NCBI GenBank assembly: GCA_000756795.1
Contig: CCSI01000002.1
Coordinates: 62,001-126,000 of the forward strand
Reading direction: 5' to 3'
DNA length: 64,000 bases
Source: Qipengyuania vulgaris
GTDB lineage: Bacteria; Pseudomonadota; Alphaproteobacteria; Sphingomonadales; Sphingomonadaceae
Part shown: positions 14,101-56,255 of the stretch, one piece after another
Layout: every line of letters begins with the position of its first letter
How positions within the stretch are numbered: the first letter of the stretch is position 1
Position numbers and translations under genes: made by a program
Notes under the pieces: generated by a model
Told to the model about the DNA's origin: nothing
The model's database searches: none
What the model saw: only the letters and a program-made list of their open reading frames with translations

Positions 14101-14210
14101 CCAAAACCGGGCCGGCGGAGGCCCGGCAAGGGCGACCGCCCGCCCGCAGGTGCTCGACGCGAAAGCGTCGAAACAGCGCCGAGGACGCGCCGACGGATGT
14201 CGGTGCGAAA
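14101..14210 (+). repeat. covarying hairpin repeat, unit A
   Basis: One unit of a dispersed element (others at 22365-22472 reverse, 22501-22580, 56054-56135 reverse and 56144-56246). Hairpins in order are: H0 CCGGGCCGGCGGAGGCCCGG (14107-14126); H1 GGGC-GACC-GCCC (14130-14141); H2 CGACGC-GAAA-GCGTCG (14155-14170); H3 CCGAC-GGAT-GTCGG (14190-14203). H0 and the linker CGCCCGCAGG are nearly identical to unit B, while H2 and H3 stems differ in sequence but remain paired. It lies between tRNA-Thr and the acyl-CoA dehydrogenase gene. Confidence 0.8.
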
Positions 14211-14236: not shown

Positions 14237-14309
14237 GTGCTGCTGGGGAGGATTGAACTCCCGGCCTCACCCTTACCAAGGGTGCGCTCTACCACTGAGC
14301 TACAGCAGC
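14235..14309 (-). tRNA. tRNA-Thr (anticodon GGT)
   Basis: A 75-base cloverleaf on the minus strand with an encoded CCA end. The acceptor stem is GCTGCTG with CAGCAGC; the D-arm is GCTC/GAGC; the anticodon stem CACCC/GGGTG encloses loop TTGGTAA, so the anticodon is GGT; the T-arm is GGGAG-TTCAATC-CTCCC. All stems pair fully. It decodes ACC/ACU. The gene stands alone, followed within a few bases by a hairpin and then a covarying repeat unit. Confidence 0.97.
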
Positions 14310-14423
14310 ACATGCTGCCCGTCGGCGATACCGATGGGGTGGAGGCGCGCGCTATTGGCAGACGCGGCGGATAAGTCAACCTTCGCTTGCCCCGTAAAGC
14401 GAAATTCGCAAAAGGAATGCGTC

Positions 14424-14567
14424 ATGAGCGCCGCAAACGACAAGATGACACGCGAGGAACGCCTCGCCGCGAAACTTCGTGAGAACCTGCGCCGCAGGAA
14501 AACGCAGACCCGCGAAATGCGCGAATCGGGCGCAGACGGGGTTTCCAAGCCAGATTCGGAGCGCTAA
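14424..14567 (+). CDS. 47-residue basic/charged protein, unknown function
   Basis: A short open frame [20 protein letters not shown] and onward, ending KPDSER. It is strongly charged, with a predicted helix rich in Arg, Lys and Glu (residues 7-35, [19 protein letters not shown]). AAAAGGAA precedes the ATG at suitable spacing, and codon use with G/C third positions looks like neighbouring genes. I recall small proteins of this appearance in other Sphingomonadales genomes, but no function is known to me. It sits alone between tRNA-Thr (divergent) and gpmA, with a dispersed inverted repeat after its stop. Confidence 0.65.
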
Positions 14568-14580
14568 CGCGCACTGCCTA

Positions 14581-14679
14581 TTGTTATCCCGCTTGTGCGG
14601 GGATGCGGTGCCAGCCCGCTCCCCCACCCGGCCACCCAAACAATATCGTGCCGTGGGTGGCCGGGTGGGGGAGCGGGCC
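14581..14679. repeat. dispersed-type inverted repeat with 25-bp perfect arms, in the gpmA leader
   Basis: Arms at 14614-14638 and 14654-14678 are perfect reverse complements over 25 bases (beginning GCCCGCTCCCCCACCC) with a 15-base loop. They are preceded by TTATCCCGCTTGTGCGGGGA, itself a small hairpin. The right arm ends 23 bases before the gpmA ATG, so if transcribed the hairpin sits in the gpmA leader. The composition suggests one of the interspersed palindromes common in alphaproteobacteria. Confidence 0.75.
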
Positions 14680-14701
14680 GGAGCCGAAAACGGGAGCGAA
14701 T

Positions 14702-15388
14702 ATGTCGAAGCTGATCCTCGTTCGCCACGGCCAGAGCGAGTGGAACCTCGCCAACCGTTTCACCGGCTGGTGGGATGTCGACCTGACCGAAAAAGGCGAA
14801 GCCGAAGCGCGAGAAGCCGGACGGCTGATGAAGGCCAAGGGCGTGTTGCCCACCACCGCCTTCACTTCGCTCCAGAAACGCGCCATCAAGACGCTCAACC
14901 TCGCACTCGAAGAATGCGACCGGCTGTGGATCCCGGTGACCCGCGACTGGCATCTGAACGAGCGCCACTATGGCGGCCTGACCGGCCTCGACAAGCAGCA
15001 GACGCGCGACAAGCATGGCGACGAGCAGGTCCACATCTGGCGCCGCAGCTTCGACGTTCCGCCGCCCGAAATGGAGCGCGGCAGCGAGTTCGACCTATCG
15101 GACGACCCGCGTTACGCCGGTATCGACGTGCCGCTGACCGAAAGCCTCAAGCTCACCATCGAGCGCGTATTGCCTTATTGGGAGGAAGCCATCCTCCCGC
15201 TCTTGGGCAAGGGCGAGACGGTCATCATCTCCGCCCATGGCAATTCCTTGCGCGCGCTGGTGAAGCACTTGTCGAACATCTCGGACGACGAGATTACCGG
15301 CCTCGAAATTCCGACCGGCCAGCCGATCGTCTACGAATTCGACGGCACACAGGTCTCGGGCGAACGCTATTACCTGAAGGACGCATAA
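14702..15388 (+). CDS. gpmA: 2,3-bisphosphoglycerate-dependent phosphoglycerate mutase
   Basis: Glycolytic/gluconeogenic enzyme interconverting 3- and 2-phosphoglycerate, 228 residues. [20 protein letters not shown] at residues 6-25 carries the phosphohistidine (H9). [23 protein letters not shown] (catalytic Glu in NER) and [14 protein letters not shown] (second catalytic His) follow. The length is slightly shorter than the 250-residue E. coli enzyme, in line with alphaproteobacterial forms. GGGAG lies at good distance before the ATG at 14702. purE starts two bases after its stop, so it may head the purE-purK-folA-ribF run. Confidence 0.96.
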
Positions 15389-15389
15389 G

Positions 15390-15884
15390 ATGGCTCAAGG
15401 GGGAGGAGCAAGGGTCGCAATCGTCATGGGCAGCCAGTCGGACTGGTCCACGATGAAATGCGCCGCCGAGGTGCTCGAGGAACTGGGCGTCGAGACCGAT
15501 GTCCGCATCGTGTCCGCCCATCGCACGCCCGACCGGATGTACGACTTCGCCAAAGCCGCCGAGGGTGGAGGCTTCCAGGTCATCATCGCGGGCGCAGGCG
15601 GCGCGGCGCATCTGCCGGGCATGATTGCCGCGCTGACCCATGTGCCGGTGCTCGGCGTGCCGGTGCAGTCGAAGGCGCTGTCGGGGCAGGACAGCCTGCT
15701 CTCCATCGTCCAGATGCCCGCCGGTGTTCCCGTGGGCACGCTCGCCATCGGCGAGGCAGGCGCGACCAATGCAGGCCTGTTCGCCGCGGCCATCCTCGCC
15801 AATAACGACGCCGGCCTTTCGCAGCGCCTCAAGGACTGGCGACAGGCCCGTAGCGACGCCGTGACCGAAAGGCCTGCAGACTGA
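15390..15884 (+). CDS. purE: 5-(carboxyamino)imidazole ribonucleotide mutase
   Basis: Purine-biosynthesis enzyme (class I PurE) that moves the carboxylate of N5-CAIR to give CAIR; 164 residues, octameric in known homologues. [41 protein letters not shown] and [20 protein letters not shown] are the CAIR-binding segments, including the conserved Ser, Asp and His. Its TGA overlaps the purK ATG by one base (TGATG), coupling it to the enzyme that supplies its substrate. Confidence 0.97.
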
Positions 15885-16951
15885 TGCTCAAGCGCGGGTC
15901 CACCATCGGCATCCTAGGTGGCGGCCAGCTGGGCCGGATGATGGCGATGAGCGCCGCGCAATTGGGCTATCGCACCGTGGGCTATGCGCCCAAAGGCGAC
16001 AATGTCAGCCACAGCGTGAATGACGAATTCATCGCTGCCGGCTGGGACGACGAAGCTGCCCTCGCCGCTTTTGCGGAGCGCTGCGATGTGGTGACATGGG
16101 AGTTCGAGAACGTCCCCGTCGACACGGCCCGCGCCATTCCGCAGGCCAAGATCTTCCCCGACCCGCTCGCGCTCGAAACCGCGCAGGACCGGCTCAACGA
16201 AAAGCGCTTCATCGAAGGCCTCGGCGGCAGGCCCGCAGCCTATGCCAAGTGCGATTCGGGCTACGACCTCGAAAGCGCGGTCGACCGGCTGGGCGCGCCC
16301 GGCATCCTCAAGACCCGCCGCGACGGATACGACGGCAAGGGCCAGTGGCGCATCATGTCGGTGCACGAGGCCTCCGCGCTACACTTCCCCGACGCACCCT
16401 GCGTCTACGAGGGCTTCGTCGAGTTCGACGCCGAATTCTCGGTCATCCTCGTGCGCAGCCAGGAGGGCGAAATCCGCTTCTGGGATTCGACCCGCAACGT
16501 GCATGAGGGCGGCATCCTCGCCGCCTCGCATTATCCTGCCACCAAGGAAATCGACGCGCAGGTCGCCGAGGCGCGCGAGCTGGCGCGAAAGGTGGCCGAT
16601 GCGCTCAAATATGTCGGCGTGCTGACGCTCGAATTTTTCGCCACGCGCGAAGGACCCGTGTTCAACGAGATGGCCCCGCGGGTACACAATTCGGGCCACT
16701 GGACCATCGAGGGTGCGGCCACGAGCCAGTTCGAGAACCATATCCGCGCTGTCGCCGGCCTGCCTTTGGGCGACACCCGCACAACCGCGGCGCGGGTCGA
16801 GATGCGCAACATCCTCGGCAGCGATATCGAGGAGGCTCACCGCCACCTCTCCGATTCGCGCGCGCATTTGCACGACTACGGCAAGGCCGAGGCGAAAGAG
16901 GGGCGCAAGATGGGCCACCTCACGCTGGTCTCGCGCGACACCCGCGGATGA
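15884..16951 (+). CDS. purK: N5-carboxyaminoimidazole ribonucleotide synthetase
   Basis: ATP-grasp enzyme making N5-CAIR from AIR, ATP and bicarbonate; 355 residues. It opens with the pre-ATP-grasp dinucleotide-like turn IGILGGGQLGRMMAMSA. It continues with TWEFENVP, the ATP-grasp lysine region LKTRRDGYDGKGQW, CVYEGFVEFDAEFSVI and the metal-binding end VFNEMAPRVHNSGHWTIEGA. It overlaps purE at the 5' end and folA at the 3' end (ATGA), so it is the middle of a compact operon. Confidence 0.97.
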   Translation: MLKRGSTIGILGGGQLGRMMAMSAAQLGYRTVGYAPKGDNVSHSVNDEFIAAGWDDEAALAAFAERCDVVTWEFENVPVDTARAIPQAKIFPDPLALETAQDRLNEKRFIEGLGGRPAAYAKCDSGYDLESAVDRLGAPGILKTRRDGYDGKGQWRIMSVHEASALHFPDAPCVYEGFVEFDAEFSVILVRSQEGEIRFWDSTRNVHEGGILAASHYPATKEIDAQVAEARELARKVADALKYVGVLTLEFFATREGPVFNEMAPRVHNSGHWTIEGAATSQFENHIRAVAGLPLGDTRTTAARVEMRNILGSDIEEAHRHLSDSRAHLHDYGKAEAKEGRKMGHLTLVSRDTRG

Positions 16952-17439
16952 GCCTGTTCTTGATCTATGCGCGCGCCGCCAATGGCGCGATCGGCAAGGA
17001 AGGCCGCCTGCCCTGGCACCTGCCCTCCGATTTGAAGCGCTTCAAGGCGCTGACGATGGGCAGTCCGATGATCATGGGCCGCAAGACCTTCGAGAGCCTG
17101 CCCGGCCTGCTACCCGGCCGCCGCCACATCGTGCTGACACGGCGCGAGCGCTGGGACTCGACCGGCGCGGAAGTTGTGCGCTCGGTCGAGGAAGCCATCG
17201 CCAAGGCGGGCGAAGGCGACGTGGCCGTCATCGGCGGCGCGGCGATTTTCGATGTCTTCATGCCGCTGGCCGAGAAGGTCGAACTCACCGAAATCCACCG
17301 CGATTTCGACGGTGACGTCTTCATGCCCCCGCTCGGGCCCGAATGGGAAATTGCCGGTCGCGAGGATTTCGAGGCGGAAGGCGACAAGCCGTCCTACTCC
17401 TTCCTCACCTACACCCGCGTCGGTGAGACGGCCGCATGA
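16948..17439 (+). CDS. folA: dihydrofolate reductase
   Basis: NADPH-dependent reductase of dihydrofolate, 163 residues, the usual length. IYARAANGAIGKEGRLPWHL (residues 5-24) contains the substrate-binding Trp/Leu region. PSDLKRFKALTMGSPMIMGR, TFESLPGLLPGRRHIVLTR and VIGGAAIFDVFMPLAEKVEL (nucleotide-binding GG) follow in order. The first acidic residue after LPWHLP is Asp in PSDL. It overlaps purK by four bases and ribF by four bases, all ATGA junctions. Confidence 0.95.
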   Translation: MSLFLIYARAANGAIGKEGRLPWHLPSDLKRFKALTMGSPMIMGRKTFESLPGLLPGRRHIVLTRRERWDSTGAEVVRSVEEAIAKAGEGDVAVIGGAAIFDVFMPLAEKVELTEIHRDFDGDVFMPPLGPEWEIAGREDFEAEGDKPSYSFLTYTRVGETAA

Positions 17440-18377
17440 GGTTTCTCGACCACCGCGACCCGCTGCCCGAAAGCCTTCGCGGAGCCATCATCGCGCTCGG
17501 CAATTTCGACGGCTTCCATCTCGGCCACCAGGCGGTGGCGAAGGAAGCCATCGACTGGGCGCGCGCCGAGGGTCGCCCCTCCATCATCGCCACCTTCGAC
17601 CCGCATCCGGTGCGTTTCTTCAGGCCCGATGCCGAGCCGTTCCGCCTGACCACGCTCGAACAGCGGCAGGAACTTTACCTCGCTGCCGGGGCCACCGCGA
17701 TGCTGGTGTTCCATTTCGACGGCGAACTGGCTGGCACGACGGCCGAAGATTTCGTCCGCGTGCTGCTTGCCGAGAAACTCGGAGCGAAAGGGGTCGTCAC
17801 CGGCGGCGACTTCACCTTCGGCAAGGCGCGCGGCGGGAATTTCGAGCGGCTGGTCGAGCTGGGCGGCGAGGTTGGCATCGAAGCGCGTGCAGTCGAGCCG
17901 GTGATGGACGGCGGCGAGGCGGTCTCCTCCAGCCGTGTCCGCGAGGCGCTGCGCGAGGGCGACCCGCAGGAGGCTGCGCGCCTCCTCACCCGCCCCTTCG
18001 CGATTCGCGGCGTGGTCGAGCATGGCGACAAGCGCGGCCGCACCATCGGCTATCCCACCGCCAACCTTTCCATCGAGAGTTACCTGCGCCCGAAATACGG
18101 CATTTACGCCGTAACAGGCCGCATTCTTTCGACCGGTCAGGAACTGCAGGGCGCGGCCAATATCGGTGTGCGCCCGCAGTTCGAACCGCCCAAGGAACTG
18201 CTCGAACCCTATTTCTTCGATTTCTCCGGCGACCTCTACGGCCAGGAAATCGAGGTCGCCTTCCACCACTTCCTGCGCGGCGAGGCCAAGTTCGATTCTC
18301 TGGAAGCGCTCACGGAGCAGATGGAAAAGGACTGCGACGAGGCTCGGCGGCTTCTCTCCTCGTCACCCCGGACTTGA
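17436..18377 (+). CDS. ribF: bifunctional riboflavin kinase / FMN adenylyltransferase
   Basis: Makes FMN and FAD from riboflavin; 313 residues. The N-terminal nucleotidyltransferase domain shows ALGNFDGFHLGHQAVAKEA (residues about 23-41) and ATFDPHPVRFF. VTGGDFTFGKARGGN and SSSRVREALREGD close it. The C-terminal flavokinase domain shows GDKRGRTIGYPTANLS and GAANIGVRP. The last few residues (SSSPRT) and the stop codon fall in an interspersed inverted repeat that begins at 18361, so the present C-terminus was set by the repeat. It overlaps folA by four bases. Confidence 0.95.
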   Translation: MRFLDHRDPLPESLRGAIIALGNFDGFHLGHQAVAKEAIDWARAEGRPSIIATFDPHPVRFFRPDAEPFRLTTLEQRQELYLAAGATAMLVFHFDGELAGTTAEDFVRVLLAEKLGAKGVVTGGDFTFGKARGGNFERLVELGGEVGIEARAVEPVMDGGEAVSSSRVREALREGDPQEAARLLTRPFAIRGVVEHGDKRGRTIGYPTANLSIESYLRPKYGIYAVTGRILSTGQELQGAANIGVRPQFEPPKELLEPYFFDFSGDLYGQEIEVAFHHFLRGEAKFDSLEALTEQMEKDCDEARRLLSSSPRT

Positions 18378-18457
18378 TCCGGGGTCCCGCTTTTCTTCGA
18401 ACCGGAGCGCTCCGCCAAAAGTTTAGCGGGACCCCGGCTCGGTGGCCGGGGTGACGG
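18361..18457. repeat. interspersed inverted repeat (GTCACCCCGG type) between ribF and ileS
   Basis: Long inverted repeat with arms beginning CGTCACCCCGG at 18361 and ending CCGGGGTGACG at 18457. Within the arms are GGGGTCCCGC (18382-18391, approximately) and GCGGGACCCC (18426-18435). The intervening 35 bases are not symmetric. This form of palindrome is, to my knowledge, widespread between genes in alphaproteobacteria. Its left end supplies the ribF stop codon, and the whole may also act as a ribF terminator. Confidence 0.8.
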
Positions 18458-18522
18458 AAGTGGGGTGCAGGCGCGACTCTCCACTTTATCGCAGCGCGCA
18501 AATCCCCTAACGGCCACACCCT

Positions 18523-21402
18523 ATGTCCGAACAGCGCGATTACAGAGACACGGTCTTCCTTCCCAAGACCGATTTTCCCATGAAGGCCGGCCTCCCCCAG
18601 AAGGAGCCGAAGATCCTTGCGCGCTGGCAGGAAGAAAACCTCTACGAAGAGCTGCGCGAGAGCCGCAAGGACCGTGAGAAGTTCATCCTTCACGACGGCC
18701 CTCCTTACGCCAATGGCGACATGCATATCGGCCATGCGCTGAACCGCATCCTCAAGGACATGGTGGTGCGTTCGCAGACGCTGCTCGGCAAGGATGCGCC
18801 CTTCGTGCCCGGCTGGGACTGCCACGGCCTGCCGATCGAGTGGAAGGTCGAAGAGAAATTCCGCAAGAAGAAGCGCGACAAGAACGCTATTCCGGCGGCC
18901 GAATTCCGCCAGGAATGCCGCGACTATGCGCAGCACTGGGTCGATGTTCAGCGCGAGCAGCTGAAACGCCTCGGCTTGATGGCGGATTTCGACAATCCGT
19001 ACCTCACCATGCAGTTCGAAAGCGAGGCGACCATCGTTGCCGAGCTGATGAAGTTCGCCGAGGCCGGCAATCTCTATCGCGGATCGAAGCCGGTGATGTG
19101 GTCGCCGGTCGAAGAAACCGCGCTGGCCGAAGCCGAGGTCGAATACGAGGACATCACCTCGACCCAGATCGACGTGGCCTTCGAGATCGTGGAATCGCCG
19201 ATTCCGGAACTGGTCGGCGCGCATGCGGTGATCTGGACCACCACGCCGTGGACGATCCCGGTGAACCAGGCTTTGGCCTATGGGCCGGAGGTTGAGTACG
19301 CTTACTTCATGGGGAACGACGCGAGGACTTATGTCGTCGCCCGCGAGCTGATGAGCGACTTTCTTGAGAGAACTGGCCTGCGCCCACGAGTCACGGAAGT
19401 AGCGACCGGCAAGGATACTGGCGTTGACTACTCCTTGGTCAAAGGCTCCGACCTCGCCGGAACCGTTGCCCGCCACCCGATGCACCATCTCGGCGGCTTC
19501 TACGCCAATCCGCGTCCGCTGCTTGCAGGCGATTTCGTCACCATCGACAGCGGTACAGGCCTCGTCCACATGTCGCCCGACCATGGCGAGGACGACTTCC
19601 TGCTCTGCCGCGAGCACGGCATCGAGCCGGTCTTCGCGGTCATGGGCAACGGGCGCTATCGCGACGACTGGGAATGGCTCGGCGGCCAGGACGAGCGCCG
19701 CCGCGCGGTGATCAACAAGGCCTTCAATTCGCCCGAAGGCCCGATCTGTTCGGACCTTTGCGAAGCAGGTGCGCTGCTTTCGGCCAACGACGATTACGCA
19801 CACTCCTACCCGCATTCGTGGCGCTCGAAGGCCAAGGTCATCTATCGCTGCACGCCGCAGTGGTTCGTGCCGATGGACAAGCCGCTCGACGTGGGCGACT
19901 TCGACGTCGCCGTGCCCGAGGGCTTCGGCGCGGCTGTCGCCATGGCCACGAGCAAGGACCACTCGACCTTGCGCGAAATCACCATGCGCGAGATCGAGCG
20001 GGTGAAGTTCTATCCCGAAAAGGGCCGCCGCCGCATCGGTTCTATGGTTGAAGGCCGCCCCGACTGGGTGCTTTCCCGCCAGCGCGCATGGGGTGTGCCG
20101 ATCACGCTCTTCGTCCGTGGCGACGGCTCCTATCTGCAGGACGCGGCAGTCAATGCCCGCGTGGTCGCCGCCGTGCGCGAACAGGGCGTCGATGCCTGGG
20201 ACGAATCTCGCAAGGCCGAATATCTCGGCGCCGATCACGATCCCGCAGAATTCGAGATGGTCACCGACATCCTCGACGTCTGGTTCGATTCGGGCTGCAC
20301 CCACGCCTTCACGCTCGAAGGCGACCGCTGGCCCGACCAGCGCTGGCCCGCCGATCTCTATCTCGAAGGCAGTGACCAGCATCGCGGCTGGTTCCAGTCG
20401 AGCCTGCTCGAAAGCTCCGCCACCCGCGGACGCGCGCCCTATGATGCGGTGCTCACGCACGGCTTCACCATGGCGAGCGACGGCAAGAAGATGTCGAAGA
20501 GCCTCGGCAACACCATCGACCCGCTGAAGGTCATGGAGCAGTACGGCGCGGACATCATCCGCCTCTGGGCGCTCTCGGTCGACTTCACCGAAGACCACCG
20601 CATCGGCGATGAAATCCTCAAAGGCGTGGGCGACCAGTACCGCCGCCTGCGCAACACCTTCCGCTACCTCCTCGGCGCGCTCGACGGGTTCGTCGGCGAC
20701 ATGGGCGATGCGGGCGAGATTCCGGAGCTGGAGGTCTACATCCTCGCGCTGCTGGCGGACCTCGACGGCAAGCTGAAGAAGGCGCTCGAGAGCTACGACT
20801 TCAACACCTACACGCGCCTGCTGGTCGATTTCTGCAACGAAGACCTGTCGGCCTTCTACTTCGATATCCGCAAGGACACGCTCTATTGCGACGGTCCGGA
20901 TTCGACGCGCCGCAACGCCTATCGCACCGTGCTCGACCTGCTGTTCCACGCGCTGGTCCGCTACGCCGCGCCGGTACTGGTGTTCACCGCGGAAGAAGTC
21001 TGGACCACGCGCTATCCCGATGGCGGCAGCGTCCATTTGCTCGACTGGCCGCCGGTGCCCGGCGTCACCGCCGACGGCGCGCGCTGGGACAAGCTGCGCG
21101 CGCTGCGTGAGCGCGTAACCGAAGCCATCGAGCCGCTGCGCCGCGACAAGACCATCCGCTCCAGCCTCGAGGCTGATGTGGTCGTGCCTGCAAGCGAAGT
21201 GCCCGAAGGCTTTTCCGACGAGGACCTCGCCGAGCTGTTCATCACCGCGTCAGTGACGCGCGGCGATAGCGACGAGGTGAAAGTCTCGCGCACCGATGAA
21301 CACAAATGCGGCCGTTGCTGGCGCTTGCTGCCTTCCGTCGAGGAAGACGGCGCGCTGTGCGACCGCTGCGAACCCGTTGTCGCCCAGATGGATGCTGCCT
21401 GA
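18523..21402 (+). CDS. ileS: isoleucyl-tRNA synthetase
   Basis: Class I aminoacyl-tRNA synthetase, 959 residues. The HIGH motif is at 68-71 (DMHIGHALNR). The CP1 editing domain is present (WTTTPWTIPVNQALA; HGEDDFLLCREHG with its conserved Asp). The KMSKS motif is at 656-660 (GKKMSKSLGN). The anticodon-binding domain ends in a C-terminal zinc finger CGRC...CDRC (C929, C932, C946, C949), which marks the bacterial IleS1-type enzyme that is usually mupirocin-sensitive. lspA starts one base after the stop, the classic ileS-lspA pairing. Confidence 0.98.
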   Translation: MSEQRDYRDTVFLPKTDFPMKAGLPQKEPKILARWQEENLYEELRESRKDREKFILHDGPPYANGDMHIGHALNRILKDMVVRSQTLLGKDAPFVPGWDCHGLPIEWKVEEKFRKKKRDKNAIPAAEFRQECRDYAQHWVDVQREQLKRLGLMADFDNPYLTMQFESEATIVAELMKFAEAGNLYRGSKPVMWSPVEETALAEAEVEYEDITSTQIDVAFEIVESPIPELVGAHAVIWTTTPWTIPVNQALAYGPEVEYAYFMGNDARTYVVARELMSDFLERTGLRPRVTEVATGKDTGVDYSLVKGSDLAGTVARHPMHHLGGFYANPRPLLAGDFVTIDSGTGLVHMSPDHGEDDFLLCREHGIEPVFAVMGNGRYRDDWEWLGGQDERRRAVINKAFNSPEGPICSDLCEAGALLSANDDYAHSYPHSWRSKAKVIYRCTPQWFVPMDKPLDVGDFDVAVPEGFGAAVAMATSKDHSTLREITMREIERVKFYPEKGRRRIGSMVEGRPDWVLSRQRAWGVPITLFVRGDGSYLQDAAVNARVVAAVREQGVDAWDESRKAEYLGADHDPAEFEMVTDILDVWFDSGCTHAFTLEGDRWPDQRWPADLYLEGSDQHRGWFQSSLLESSATRGRAPYDAVLTHGFTMASDGKKMSKSLGNTIDPLKVMEQYGADIIRLWALSVDFTEDHRIGDEILKGVGDQYRRLRNTFRYLLGALDGFVGDMGDAGEIPELEVYILALLADLDGKLKKALESYDFNTYTRLLVDFCNEDLSAFYFDIRKDTLYCDGPDSTRRNAYRTVLDLLFHALVRYAAPVLVFTAEEVWTTRYPDGGSVHLLDWPPVPGVTADGARWDKLRALRERVTEAIEPLRRDKTIRSSLEADVVVPASEVPEGFSDEDLAELFITASVTRGDSDEVKVSRTDEHKCGRCWRLLPSVEEDGALCDRCEPVVAQMDAA

Positions 21403-21403
21403 C

Positions 21404-21928
21404 ATGAACCCGCTTCTTCGTATGCGCCTTGTCGGCGTGGTCGTGGCCTTCGTCATCTATGCCGTGGACCAGTGGGTGAAATGGCTCATGGTCGAGCCGC
21501 TGCAACTGCGCGAGAAGGGCGTCATCGACCTGCTGCCCTTCTTCGATTTGCGCTGGACGCAGAATTTCGGTGTCTCGATGGGCATGTTCGAGGCGGACAG
21601 TTTCGAATCGCGCTGGATACTGGTCGGCGTCACCGCGCTCATCGCGCTGGTGGTGACCATCTGGATGTTCCGCGAGAAGGCATGGGGCGATATCCTCGGC
21701 CTGTCGATGATCCTCGGCGGCGCGCTGGGCAACATCAAGGACCGCTACGAACTCGGCTACGTTATCGACTATGCCGACCTCCACATCGGGGAATTCCGCC
21801 CCTTCCTCATTTTCAACGTCGCCGATGCCGCTATCACCATCGGCGTGGTTATAATCCTTGCCCGCGCCTTCTTCATGCGCGACAAGGACGAACAAGAGGT
21901 CGACGACCTCATGGAGAGCAAGCAATGA
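21404..21928 (+). CDS. lspA: lipoprotein signal peptidase (signal peptidase II)
   Basis: Inner-membrane aspartic protease that removes signal peptides from diacylglyceryl-prolipoproteins; 174 residues with four hydrophobic segments. The catalytic pair is D113 in GGALGNIKDR and D141 in FNVADAAITIG. YAVDQWVKW and WTQNFGVSMGMF are the other signature blocks. It begins immediately after ileS and overlaps by four bases with a gene for a lipoprotein, one of its own expected substrates. The acidic C-terminus DKDEQEVDDLMESKQ is cytosolic. Confidence 0.96.
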   Translation: MNPLLRMRLVGVVVAFVIYAVDQWVKWLMVEPLQLREKGVIDLLPFFDLRWTQNFGVSMGMFEADSFESRWILVGVTALIALVVTIWMFREKAWGDILGLSMILGGALGNIKDRYELGYVIDYADLHIGEFRPFLIFNVADAAITIGVVIILARAFFMRDKDEQEVDDLMESKQ

Positions 21929-22335
21929 ACACTTTCGCCCGCATCGCCCTTCTCGGCGCCACATCGAGCATGCTGGCCGCCTGCGGCAGCGGCGGCTTCC
22001 TGAATCGTGAGCGTCCCGACGAATTCGCCGTGCAGCGTCAGGCACCGCTGGTCGTCCCGCCCGATTTCAACCTCGTGCCCCCCGCTCCCGGCGCCCCGCG
22101 TCCGGCAGAAGGTTCGGCTGCCGAGCAGACCTTGGAAGCACTCTTCGGCGGCCCCGCGCAGCGCAGCTCGGTCGAAACCAGCGCGCTCGACCGTGCCGGC
22201 GCAGCCGAAGCCGGCATCCGTTCCTCGGTCGGTTCGGAAGAGACCAACACGGTCGCCAAGGGCACCGTGGTCCGCGACATCATCGCTGCACCCGAAGGTG
22301 ACGGCGCATCGGCACAGGCCGTAATTCCGGGCTGA
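21925..22335 (+). CDS. DUF3035 lipoprotein
   Basis: A 136-residue small lipoprotein: signal sequence MNTFARIALLGATSSMLAAC with lipobox LAAC (C20). The DUF3035 core follows: RPDEFAVQRQAPLVVPPDF with the proline-rich continuation NLVPPAPGAPRP. The rest is Ala/Ser/Glu-rich and likely disordered. Proteins with this region are known from alphaproteobacteria, often beside lspA. I know of no biochemical role, though an outer-membrane-facing structural role is plausible. The start ATG overlaps the lspA stop (ATGA). It is the last gene of the ileS unit, followed by hairpin repeats. Confidence 0.85.
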   Translation: MNTFARIALLGATSSMLAACGSGGFLNRERPDEFAVQRQAPLVVPPDFNLVPPAPGAPRPAEGSAAEQTLEALFGGPAQRSSVETSALDRAGAAEAGIRSSVGSEETNTVAKGTVVRDIIAAPEGDGASAQAVIPG

Positions 22336-22364
22336 CACCCGTAATTACTTTATTTCTGTTTTGA

Positions 22365-22472
22365 GAACCCGCCTCCGCGGGCTCATCCTCGGTGCTGCTT
22401 CGACGCGTAACCGCGTCGAGCACCTGCGGGCGGCCGGTCGGCTTTGCCGGGCCTCCACCGGCCCGGTTTTGG
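22365..22472 (-). repeat. covarying hairpin repeat, unit B (minus orientation)
   Basis: Read on the minus strand: H0 CCGGGCCGGTGGAGGCCCGG (22447-22466), H1 GCC-GACC-GGC (22433-22442), H2 CGACGCG-GTTA-CGCGTCG (22401-22418), H3 GAGCCCGC-GGAG-GCGGGTTC (22365-22384). It matches unit A closely in H0, in the linker CGCCCGCAGG and in the bases between H2 and H3 (CACCGAGGA against CGCCGAGGA), while the stems differ. It lies in the convergent gap between the DUF3035 gene and the CNNM gene. Confidence 0.8.
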
Positions 22473-22500
22473 CACTACGCCAGTAATATTTGGGTCAGTT

Positions 22501-22580
22501 CTTGGTCGCGGCAGCCAAAGCGCGACTGCGCGCCGCCGCTTATGCGGCGAAGCCAAGCCGCACGGACGTGCGGCGCCCGG
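22501..22580 (+). repeat. covarying hairpin repeat, divergent unit D
   Basis: Same hairpin order as units A-C but almost entirely different stems: H1 GCGC-GACT-GCGC (22520-22531), H2 CGCCGC-TTAT-GCGGCG (22534-22549), H3 GCCGCAC-GGAC-GTGCGGC (22557-22574). The GACT and GGAC loops correspond to GACY and GGAN in the other units. The H0 hairpin is weak here (GGT-CGCGGCA-GCC). It starts 28 bases after unit B. Confidence 0.7.
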
Positions 22581-22597
22581 CGTTTGAGGGCGAAAAC

Positions 22598-22626
22598 AAA
22601 AAACCGCGGAGCTACTACGTCCGCAG
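22598..22626 (-). terminator. terminator of the CNNM/CorC-type gene
   Basis: On the minus strand, CTGCGGA pairs with TCCGCGG (one G-T pair) around a 9-base loop, followed by TTTTTT (22598-22603). It begins two bases after the stop of the minus-strand gene ending at 22628. Confidence 0.75.
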
Positions 22627-22627
22627 T

Positions 22628-23953
22628 TTAATCTCCGGATACCTCATCGCCCTTCGCAGGTCCGACAGAACTCACCAGCACCTTGTCGATCCTGCGCTCG
22701 TCGAGGTCGACCACTTCGAAGCGCCAGCCCTGTTCCTCGAACCACTCACCCTCGGCGGGGAGTTTCTTGAGGACTGCGAGGCAGAAGCCTGCGACAGTGG
22801 CGAATTCGCGGTCGTCGCCGTAGTCCAGCGCCAACCGGTCGGCGAGTGCGTCGGCGCTAAGCGAGCCAGCCACCAGTAGCGAACCGTCGTCGCGCTCGAC
22901 AATACCTGGAGTGTCATCAGGGTCCTGGTCGCTGGCGAAATCACCCACCAGCGCGGTGAGGAGGTCCACCGGGGTCACGATGCCATCGAGGTGCCCGTAC
23001 TCATCGTGGACCATCGCCATCGCGATGTCGGCCTGTTGCAGCACGCGCAGCGCGTCGACCGCATCGAGCTGGTCGGGGACGACCTCCGCCTTTGTCATCA
23101 ACGCTTCGAGCTGTACGCCTTCGCCGGCGAGCAGCGCCGTCAAAACTTCGCGCACCCGCACGAGGCCGAGAACCTTGTCGGGCGAACCATCCGCCACCGG
23201 CCATACCGAGTGCGGGCTTTCCTCGAGCAGCGCGCGAACGCCTGCCTCGTCGGCATTGATATCGATCCAGTCGACATCGGTGCGCGGTGTCATCACCTCG
23301 CGCACGGGACGCTGCGCGAGCCGCACCACGCCCGCGAGCATCTGGTGCTGTTCGCTCTCGATAACGCCGGTATTGGTCGCTTCGGCGAAGAGCATATGCA
23401 GCTCTTCCGCCGTAACCGAACTCTGCCCGCCGGGTTTGACCCCCAGCAGCCGTATCAACATCCCCGAGCTCGCATCGAGCAACCACACCAGCGGCGCTGC
23501 GACCCGCGCCAGCAAGGCCATCGGCCGCGACATCGTGACGGCAATCGGCACTGCTGCACGCAGGGCGACCTGCTTGGGCACCAATTCGCCCACCACAAGG
23601 CTGAAATAGGTCGTCAGCGCGATGACCAGTGCGAAACCGGCCTGCCCTGCCCAGTCGGCAGGCACACCGATGGCCGCCAGCCGCTCGCCCACCGGCCCGC
23701 CGAGGCTCGCGCCCGAATAGGCACCGGCGATGATGCCGACCAGCGTGATGCCGATTTGTACGGTCGAGAGAAACTTGCCCGGGTTTTCCGCCAGCTCGAT
23801 GGCGGTCTTGGCGCCCGCGCTGCCCGCAGCAGCCGCAGTGCGCAGCTTTCCGGTGCGCGCGGAAACGATAGCCAGCTCGCTCATGGCGAAGACGCCGTTG
23901 AGCATGATGAGCCCGGCGATGATGAGAAGGTCGGTCCAGGGAAAGGGTGTCAC
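22628..23953 (-). CDS. CNNM/CorC-type membrane protein (DUF21, CBS pair, transporter-associated domain)
   Basis: A 441-residue protein often annotated as hemolysin-family. The N-terminal DUF21 membrane domain (about 1-200) starts PWTDLLIIAGLIMLNGVFAM and includes ELVPKQVALR. Two CBS modules follow (about 215-340; REVMTPRTDVDWIDINADE and YGHLDGIVTPVDLLTAL). The C-terminal CorC_HlyC domain ends EGEWFEEQGWRFEVVDLDER. Homologues act in Mg2+/Co2+ efflux or magnesium homeostasis; hemolysis is not implied. The start is GTG at 23951-23953. A good terminator follows the stop. Confidence 0.92.
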   Translation of the reverse strand: MTPFPWTDLLIIAGLIMLNGVFAMSELAIVSARTGKLRTAAAAGSAGAKTAIELAENPGKFLSTVQIGITLVGIIAGAYSGASLGGPVGERLAAIGVPADWAGQAGFALVIALTTYFSLVVGELVPKQVALRAAVPIAVTMSRPMALLARVAAPLVWLLDASSGMLIRLLGVKPGGQSSVTAEELHMLFAEATNTGVIESEQHQMLAGVVRLAQRPVREVMTPRTDVDWIDINADEAGVRALLEESPHSVWPVADGSPDKVLGLVRVREVLTALLAGEGVQLEALMTKAEVVPDQLDAVDALRVLQQADIAMAMVHDEYGHLDGIVTPVDLLTALVGDFASDQDPDDTPGIVERDDGSLLVAGSLSADALADRLALDYGDDREFATVAGFCLAVLKKLPAEGEWFEEQGWRFEVVDLDERRIDKVLVSSVGPAKGDEVSGD

Positions 23954-56021: not shown

Positions 56022-56053
56022 GCTTTGTGTCTACCCGGATGTTTTTGTGTTTC

Positions 56054-56246
56054 GAACCCGCCTCCGCGGGTTCGTCCTCGGGGCTATTCCTCCGCTTCGC
56101 TACGGGCCCCTGCGGTCGGCCGGTCGGCCTCTGACTGCCGTGACCAAGAACCGGGCCGGCGGAGGCCCGGCAAGGGCGACTGCCCGTCCGCAGCGTGTGC
56201 AGTTTGCTGCACGTCTAGCGAGGACGAGCCCGCGGAGGCGGGCTCG
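56054..56246. repeat. covarying hairpin repeats, units C1 and C2 head to head
   Basis: Two units in opposite orientation fill the rsfS-rlmH gap. C2 (plus, 56144-56246): H0 CCGGGCCGGCGGAGGCCCGG (56151-56170), H1 GGGC-GACT-GCCC (56174-56185), H2 GTGCAG-TTTG-CTGCAC (56197-56212), H3 GAGCCCGC-GGAG-GCGGGCTC (56226-56245). C1 (minus, about 56054-56135): H3 GAACCCGC-GGAG-GCGGGTTC (56054-56073) and H1 GGCC-GACC-GGCC (56118-56129); its H2 is imperfect and H0 is missing. H3 of C1 and C2 differ at complementary positions. If transcribed, they lie 5' of rlmH or 3' of rsfS. Confidence 0.8.
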
Positions 56247-56255
56247 AAAAACGAA

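Follow-up and report, generated by a model that had tools for sequence, protein, structure and literature searches.

The gaps between genes in the 64,000-nucleotide stretch of Qipengyuania vulgaris DNA analysed here (the window) hold arrays of hairpins whose loops stay nearly the same from copy to copy while their stems change, and the question is what such an element might be. An earlier note on five of these units (A, B, C1, C2 and D) had offered a structured RNA family, a protein-binding DNA hairpin or a transposed element maintained as structure. All the hairpins quoted there are present in the sequence, the true units being slightly larger than given. Each unit is an array of about 85 nt, H1-H2-H3, often with a further hairpin, H0, in front. 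On the forward strand of the unit the order is H1, a linker G-N-CCGCAG, H2, a linker CGAGGAC/T, H3 and an A-rich tail (GAAAAACAAAA) in which about 13 nt are conserved; the aligned copies mostly carry CAAG ahead of H1 and CGAGGAC/T ahead of H3. H1 has 4 bp and a GACC or GACT loop and is preceded by H0 or by an alternative module recognised by pattern (GGTCRCGGCAGYCARAG), and H3 has 8 bp and a loop that is mostly GGAN. H2 had been described as a stem in a fixed place with wholly different bases, which is only partly so: its outer CC/GG and its GCA/GA internal loop are constant, and its inner stem comes in several types for which pairing fails when the columns are compared one by one (61 of 132 units leave one pair unpaired). 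As far as reading of the sequence shows, the element codes for no protein.

We built a covariance model from eight training copies, four of them units of the window (A, B, C1 and C2) and four taken from other parts of the genome, and withheld D on purpose; the first four therefore match by construction. Unit A is single and lies on the forward strand at 14127-14210 (91.8 bits with the R1 model), with an H0 found by pattern at 14107-14126; it is downstream of a reverse-strand tRNA gene (14238-14309, RF00005). Its H3, GCGCCGAC GGAT GTCGGTGC (14187-14206), is a stem of 8 bp that includes one G.T pair and not the 5 bp first reported. Units B and D share the gap between a DUF3035 protein gene on the left (21472-22335, forward, PF11233, start codon uncertain) and, convergent with it, a CNNM/CorC-type transporter gene on the right (22628-23953, reverse, PF01595 and PF03471). 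Unit B, of the beta type and in the training set, occupies 22361-22446 on the reverse strand (R1 model, 87.2 bits). Sequence and fold give its H3 as GAGCCCGC GGAG GCGGGTTC (22365-22384), its H1 reads (A)GCC GACC GGC(C), with loop GACC (22432-22443), and the H0 pattern matches CCGGGCC GGTGGA GGCCCGG (22447-22466). On the forward strand, the alternative 5' module GGTCGCGGCAGCCAAAG (22504-22520, by pattern) stands ahead of unit D (22517-22578), whose H1 is GCGC GACT GCGC (22520-22531) and whose H3 is GCCGCAC GGAC GTGCGGC (22557-22574). In the 64-kb window the model trained without D recovered it at 21.2 bits (E = 0.0096), the next match outside the training set standing at 0.15. Of the five units proposed, four (A, B, C1, C2) count as full members of the family, and D belongs to it only as a divergent variant. 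By eye, D-like units (22550-22602 in the window, and loci L114 and L136) appear to have an extra outer helix round H3, for example AGCCT...AGGCT, before the A-rich tail. At the third locus, unit C1, of the beta type (56050-56132, reverse, R1 model 92.5 bits), with its alternative 5' module GGTCACGGCAGTCAGAG (56129-56145, reverse, by pattern), is paired with unit C2, of the alpha type (56171-56249, forward, R1 model 89.4 bits), whose H0 lies at 56151-56170 (forward, by pattern). C2 abuts the stop codon of rsfS, and rlmH lies beyond C1, both genes being named by NCBIfam and Pfam.

The family reaches well beyond these copies. The covariance-model search that had been proposed gave 14 matches at E ≤ 1 in the organism's own genome, 11 of them strong; three strong copies were not used in training (86.0, 81.7 and 80.5 bits), and many more were found in relatives. 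At E ≤ 0.01, 23 of the 25 genomes of the genus, our own counted, carry the element, copy number across the 25 ranging from 0 to 33, and none of 16 genomes from other families of the order has a match. With stricter filters and E ≤ 1e-5 it was found in 63 of 298 genomes of the family and in 24 of the 91 genera sampled, and a pattern scan of named genomes gave at least 116 stretches. Among the matches listed (80 titles) are Erythrobacter, Porphyrobacter, Qipengyuania, Aurantiacibacter, Alteraurantiacibacter, Altererythrobacter, Pelagerythrobacter and Croceibacterium, the remaining titles being unplaced Erythrobacteraceae, Sphingomonadales or Alphaproteobacteria records. With 22365-22480 as query, blastn against plasmids returned nothing at E ≤ 1e-5, and we found no description of the element family among the open-access PMC papers listed.

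Units also occur in an apparent gene transfer agent (GTA) structural cluster. Four stretches of 4-7 kb, selected because matches clustered in them (L071, L072, L073 and L074, from genomes G005, G008, G024 and G002), hold 25 units at E ≤ 0.1 (7, 7, 5 and 6, respectively). These lie in the gaps protease/capsid, capsid/connector, orfg8/tail and orfg11/orfg12, with one ahead of the portal gene, and homologous gaps are occupied in several species. The portal, protease, capsid, tail and Rcc01695-family proteins of L072 scored above the NCBIfam cut-offs; the GTA genes of L071 were named by reading, and shared flanking proteins served to name those of L073 and L074. The four genomes together have 92 matches at E ≤ 0.01. 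Six IMG/VR contigs called viral (L287-L292) carry one or two units each and are possibly pieces of gene transfer agents rather than phages.

The claim that structure is kept while stems change was borne out by the alignment of 142 distinct units. The 79 loci, of our choosing, held 151 matches at E ≤ 0.1, and 150 of these were aligned. Overall 95.2% of cells are paired, changes on both sides occur at 17 of the 19 pairs, and the covariation score, 0.458, is beyond chance, compared with 0.117 ± 0.006 for shuffled alignments and at most 0.059 for slid structures. Because this alignment had been fitted to the model, we repeated the analysis of H3 with a plain pattern, applied to 385 fetched loci, that fixes the CGAGGAY linker and the GGA loop and leaves the stem free. 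It gave 162 distinct arm pairs, of which 66 are perfectly Watson-Crick and 50 have one departure; for 64 of the perfect 66 there is another perfect stem that differs by one base pair. When the loop was also left free, 164 distinct hairpins were paired at 7 or more of 8 positions, and GGA followed by G, T or C accounts for 144 of them (GGAG 75, GGAT 62, GGAC 7, other 20). As background, positions taken arbitrarily within these loci, with the elements counted in, show a perfect 8-bp stem round a 4-nt gap in 79 of 255501 cases. The picture given by the H3 arm-pair data is not one of uncompensated stem changes or of the decay of a single palindrome. Such upkeep might nevertheless be neutral if template switching during replication copied one arm onto the other, so that stems would covary without selection on structure. 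Template switching can yield multi-base compensatory changes, according to the available text of PMC8794818, and among 127 pairs of perfect stems that differ by a single base pair, 83 cannot be linked through a G.U or A.C intermediate (44 can, in GC-rich stems that limit the options). We consider the neutral origin rather improbable, because the loops and linkers, which lie outside the stems, are conserved too, and because the inverted loops expected from such copying (CTCC, ATCC, GTCC) are absent from the 164 free-loop hairpins. On its own it would also leave the simultaneous differences at several positions of both H3 arms unexplained.

If the fold were under selection in forward RNA or single-stranded DNA, G.U mismatches should exceed A.C mismatches. 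For distinct H3 arm pairs with at most two departures we counted 36 G.U/U.G against 15 A.C/C.A (binomial P = 0.0046), although 13 of the 36 fall at one stem position and the arm pairs share ancestry, so that lineages are not independent. The tally had moved from 11:7 through 30:13 to 36:15 as loci were added. We take the excess as suggestive only. H1 has no bias (5 against 6), and the patterns for H0 and H2 yielded cases that were too few or unpaired. The strand that carries the H3 excess is antisense to the gene which the unit abuts; a hairpin in an mRNA 3'-UTR would predict the reverse. A forward-strand role, as RNA or single-stranded DNA, is possible. In its fuller form it would make the element a structured RNA, or an obligatory forward single-stranded DNA fold, whose H1 and H3 loops are read by a candidate protein and whose copies act as modules in cis or in trans. 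The strong covariation, the GAC[CT] and mostly GGA[GTC] loops, the constant linkers (CCGCAG, CGAGGAC) and the H3 mismatch ratio favour this proposal; set against it are the unbiased H1, the many stem differences that have no G.U intermediate and the lack of an Rfam match, and we hold it to be doubtful. The element shares with structured RNAs of Rfam a covarying architecture of several hairpins, but only the tRNA reaches a gathering threshold in the window, and relaxed matches over 22300-22650 are far below cut-off. It is just as doubtful, in our judgement, that the units form a class of single-strand-folded modules (RNA or single-stranded DNA) whose fixed loops, GACY and GGAB, and linkers would be read by a dedicated candidate protein whatever the stem, and which would be placed as heterodimers behind genes and repeatedly between GTA structural genes.

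A particular protein, CsrA, had come to mind in the earlier note from the GGA in the H3 loop, to which the AGGA of the linker can be added, the element then serving as a sponge or a set of binding sites. The lead fails because CsrA is absent: PF02599 has no match in our genome or in 14 of 15 other genomes of the genus, and the sole match lies at the edge of a contig (C195) of a draft assembly (G013) in 380 contigs with a completeness of 75% and a contamination of 4%. With 15 of 16 genomes lacking the protein, a canonical CsrA sponge is ruled out, and CsrA-type sites of any sort are scarcely credible.

The comparison with repeated palindromes is closer. RIME and other rhizobial intergenic mosaic elements resemble the element by description, being palindrome mosaics between genes in alphaproteobacteria. 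The earlier note had expected REP-like DNA to conserve its stems, an expectation not supported by the CGTC-tagged REPs of alphaproteobacteria, for which alternative stems are described in the available text of Di Nocera et al. 2013 (PMC3733652). Loops that are conserved round stems that change are thus compatible with REPs. As far as that text goes, the CGTC REPs resemble our element in several ways: family 1 has an 8-bp stem and a 4-nt loop; inverted dimers occur, and heterodimers in some families; the repeats lie in co-directional and convergent gene gaps, in many cases no more than 20 bp from the 3' end of an ORF; and they have no dedicated transposase. Within the same limits, the element differs in having three to four hairpins per unit, stems that need not start with A/T pairs, an A-rich tail where the CGTC REPs have CCA, and pairs arranged tag-inward (TT), an order described in that paper as rare for CGTC repeats. 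Furthermore, the CGTC of the element comes after the stem, whereas in the CGTC repeats of L072 and L287 (CGTCATTCCCGC...GCGGGAATCCA) it comes before it. Membership of the CGTC REPs, which are marked by CGTC ahead of a stem of 8-9 bp and by a CCA tail, was rejected: GACG precedes H3, the tail is GAAAAACAAA, and some loci carry CGTC repeats apart from the element, the published polarity being judged from those repeats. In the part of the RepRanger paper available (PMC12306157), Erythrobacter cryptus appears in a table of counts only.

Inverted doublets of palindromes with a spacer, in extragenic space, are also the form of BIMEs and REPINs as presented in the accessible portion of PMC3116915, and it could be asked whether the element is a REPIN mobilised by a RAYT. 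Compared with that account it has no RAYT, no GTAG tag and much longer arms. The Y1 transposase family (PF01797, Y1_Tnp) has no match in our genome and matches in 1 of 25 genomes of the genus, against 5 of 14 control genomes, and no GTAG precedes the hairpins in the aligned copies that we read. As the Y1 transposase is lacking in 24 of 25 genomes, REPIN membership fails; a Y1-type RAYT/REPIN system is ruled out in these genomes, and a REPIN origin of the element is highly improbable. An intrinsic terminator was likewise rejected because no T run follows H3: the forward tail of H3 is A-rich and its reverse side reads GTCCTCG. Rho-dependent or processed ends may occur at the element.

Placement was analysed for 95 unit groups, with genes called by a simple codon-usage caller of our own and two loci (L044 and L056) left out because they overlap L072 and L071. 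Of these groups 62 lie in co-directional, 21 in convergent and 8 in divergent gene gaps, and the other 4, two of which sit at the edge of a locus, were scored as lying within ORFs, all as raw counts. A complete element consists of two inverted units with their H3 ends outward, usually of different types, and single units are common: we counted 46 '-+' pairs, no '+-' pair, 48 singles and one '--' group. After four of 174 distinct units had been dropped because no gene was called on their H3 side, the H3 end faced a stop codon in 126 of 170, at 15 nt or less in 82; the other 44 faced a start codon. Among singles in co-directional gaps the preference is weak (20 toward the stop, 12 toward the start). 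By H2, 276 distinct units divide into beta (152), alpha (93), gamma (15) and other (16). Partners are of the same type in only 3 of 28 distinct '-+' pairs, those in which both units match the pattern, where random pairing gives 9.9 (P = 0.002), although the types were defined after the pairs had been seen; one of the three, in L074, looks misclassified. Partners show no avoidance of shared sequence: their H3 arms are identical in 1 of 28 pairs, where the null is 1.0, and their H2 in 0 of 28, where it is 0.9. A test by length class gave P = 0.08, so that the three-type comparison, made after these, was the sole positive one. For REP heterodimers, the available text of Di Nocera et al. 2013 (PMC3733652) proposes that unlike arms protect from the removal of long palindromes.

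Single-linkage grouping by similarity of both flanking proteins gave 13 site groups that hold loci of at least three genomes. For two sites, rsfS/rlmH and B/D, an orthologous match was found in 59 of 60 genomes of the genus, and the best 30 loci were fetched for each. At least one unit is present in 21 of the 30 rsfS/rlmH loci and in 17 of the 30 B/D loci, two of the latter weak (L117, 31.2 bits; L120, 42.2 bits). Pattern matches in 18 of the 30 rsfS loci show the H3 kinds GCTCGCGC, GCGCCGAC, GCAGCCGC and GAGCCCGC as well as two imperfect variants, and H3 is perfectly paired in 16 of the 18. At this site genomes G053 and G059 have two differences ahead of H3, yet unlike H3 stems, and in G000 one H2 sequence is joined to three different H3 5' arms. 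At the B/D site, unit types vary between species. In six B/D loci that have no element (L122-L124, L126, L128 and L129) a single simple hairpin, noted by eye, follows the stop codon, as if hairpin and element stood in for each other.

Sites A and B/D are also the ends of an inversion. Compared with the window and G053, both G073 (L362, L382) and G055 (L363, L383) have the 8 kb between and including the tRNA and DUF3035 genes (14238-22335 in the window) in inverted order. The tRNA/CNNM junction carries an element in both genomes. The other junction holds an element pair in G055, where we did not find, within the stretch fetched, the acyl-CoA dehydrogenase gene that lies beside site A; in G073 the acyl-CoA dehydrogenase gene stands 73 bp from the DUF3035 gene with no element between them. 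The inversion is most simply read as the outcome of recombination between copies in inverted orientation.

Another way to account for such a distribution is a MITE or a SINE-like non-autonomous element still moved by some enzyme, its ends formed by the outer H3 and the A-rich tail. The units do form terminal inverted repeats, usually of different type; the outer ends are constant, copy number differs widely among related genomes, and the B/D site exists with and without an element. But the Y1 family, the one searched, is absent from 24 of 25 genomes of the genus, no target duplication can be read, the empty sites being too diverged, and many sites are orthologous, so that we judge continuing movement unlikely.

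The explanation we prefer, at a probability of roughly 0.55, is a compound intergenic palindromic family of the Erythrobacter group, BIME/REP-like, that would have spread long ago and been reshuffled by recombination and that may act at 3' ends. Like REPs and BIMEs, it consists of multicopy extragenic palindromes in inverted pairs near ORF 3' ends. Copies would have spread long ago through some activity, and present reshuffling would be mainly by recombination between copies. Pairing and loops would be kept because a unit could work only when folded on its own strand, and the left and right arms may be kept unlike in a way that avoids one long unstable palindrome. The role at the 3' ends of transcription units, where the hairpins could protect ends or separate transcripts, is the least certain step, a tentative proposal that we would not back at even odds. 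Several observations sit uneasily with the preferred explanation: the search for a mobilising enzyme, which covered the Y1 family, identified none; more than a quarter of the H3 ends (44 of 170) face a start codon, and the co-directional singles show only the weak preference given above; the G.U excess is antisense to the abutting gene; the inversion junction of about 73 bp in G073 has no element, and the acyl-CoA dehydrogenase gene of G055 is missing from the stretch fetched; and the pair types are post hoc, while neither by H3 arm nor by exact H2 do partners differ more than chance would have them.

Among the options first offered, a transposed element maintained as structure fits best, and the element is best filed as a new, structurally elaborate REP/BIME-like variant, kept at gene ends and exchanged between copies, rather than as a proven new RNA. 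Covariation alone is no proof of RNA, and this family is a warning case. With many perfect stems round nearly one loop, at dispersed as well as orthologous sites, it is also a natural test case in which three sources of covariation can be told apart: selection for structure, exchange from copy to copy and repair by template switching.
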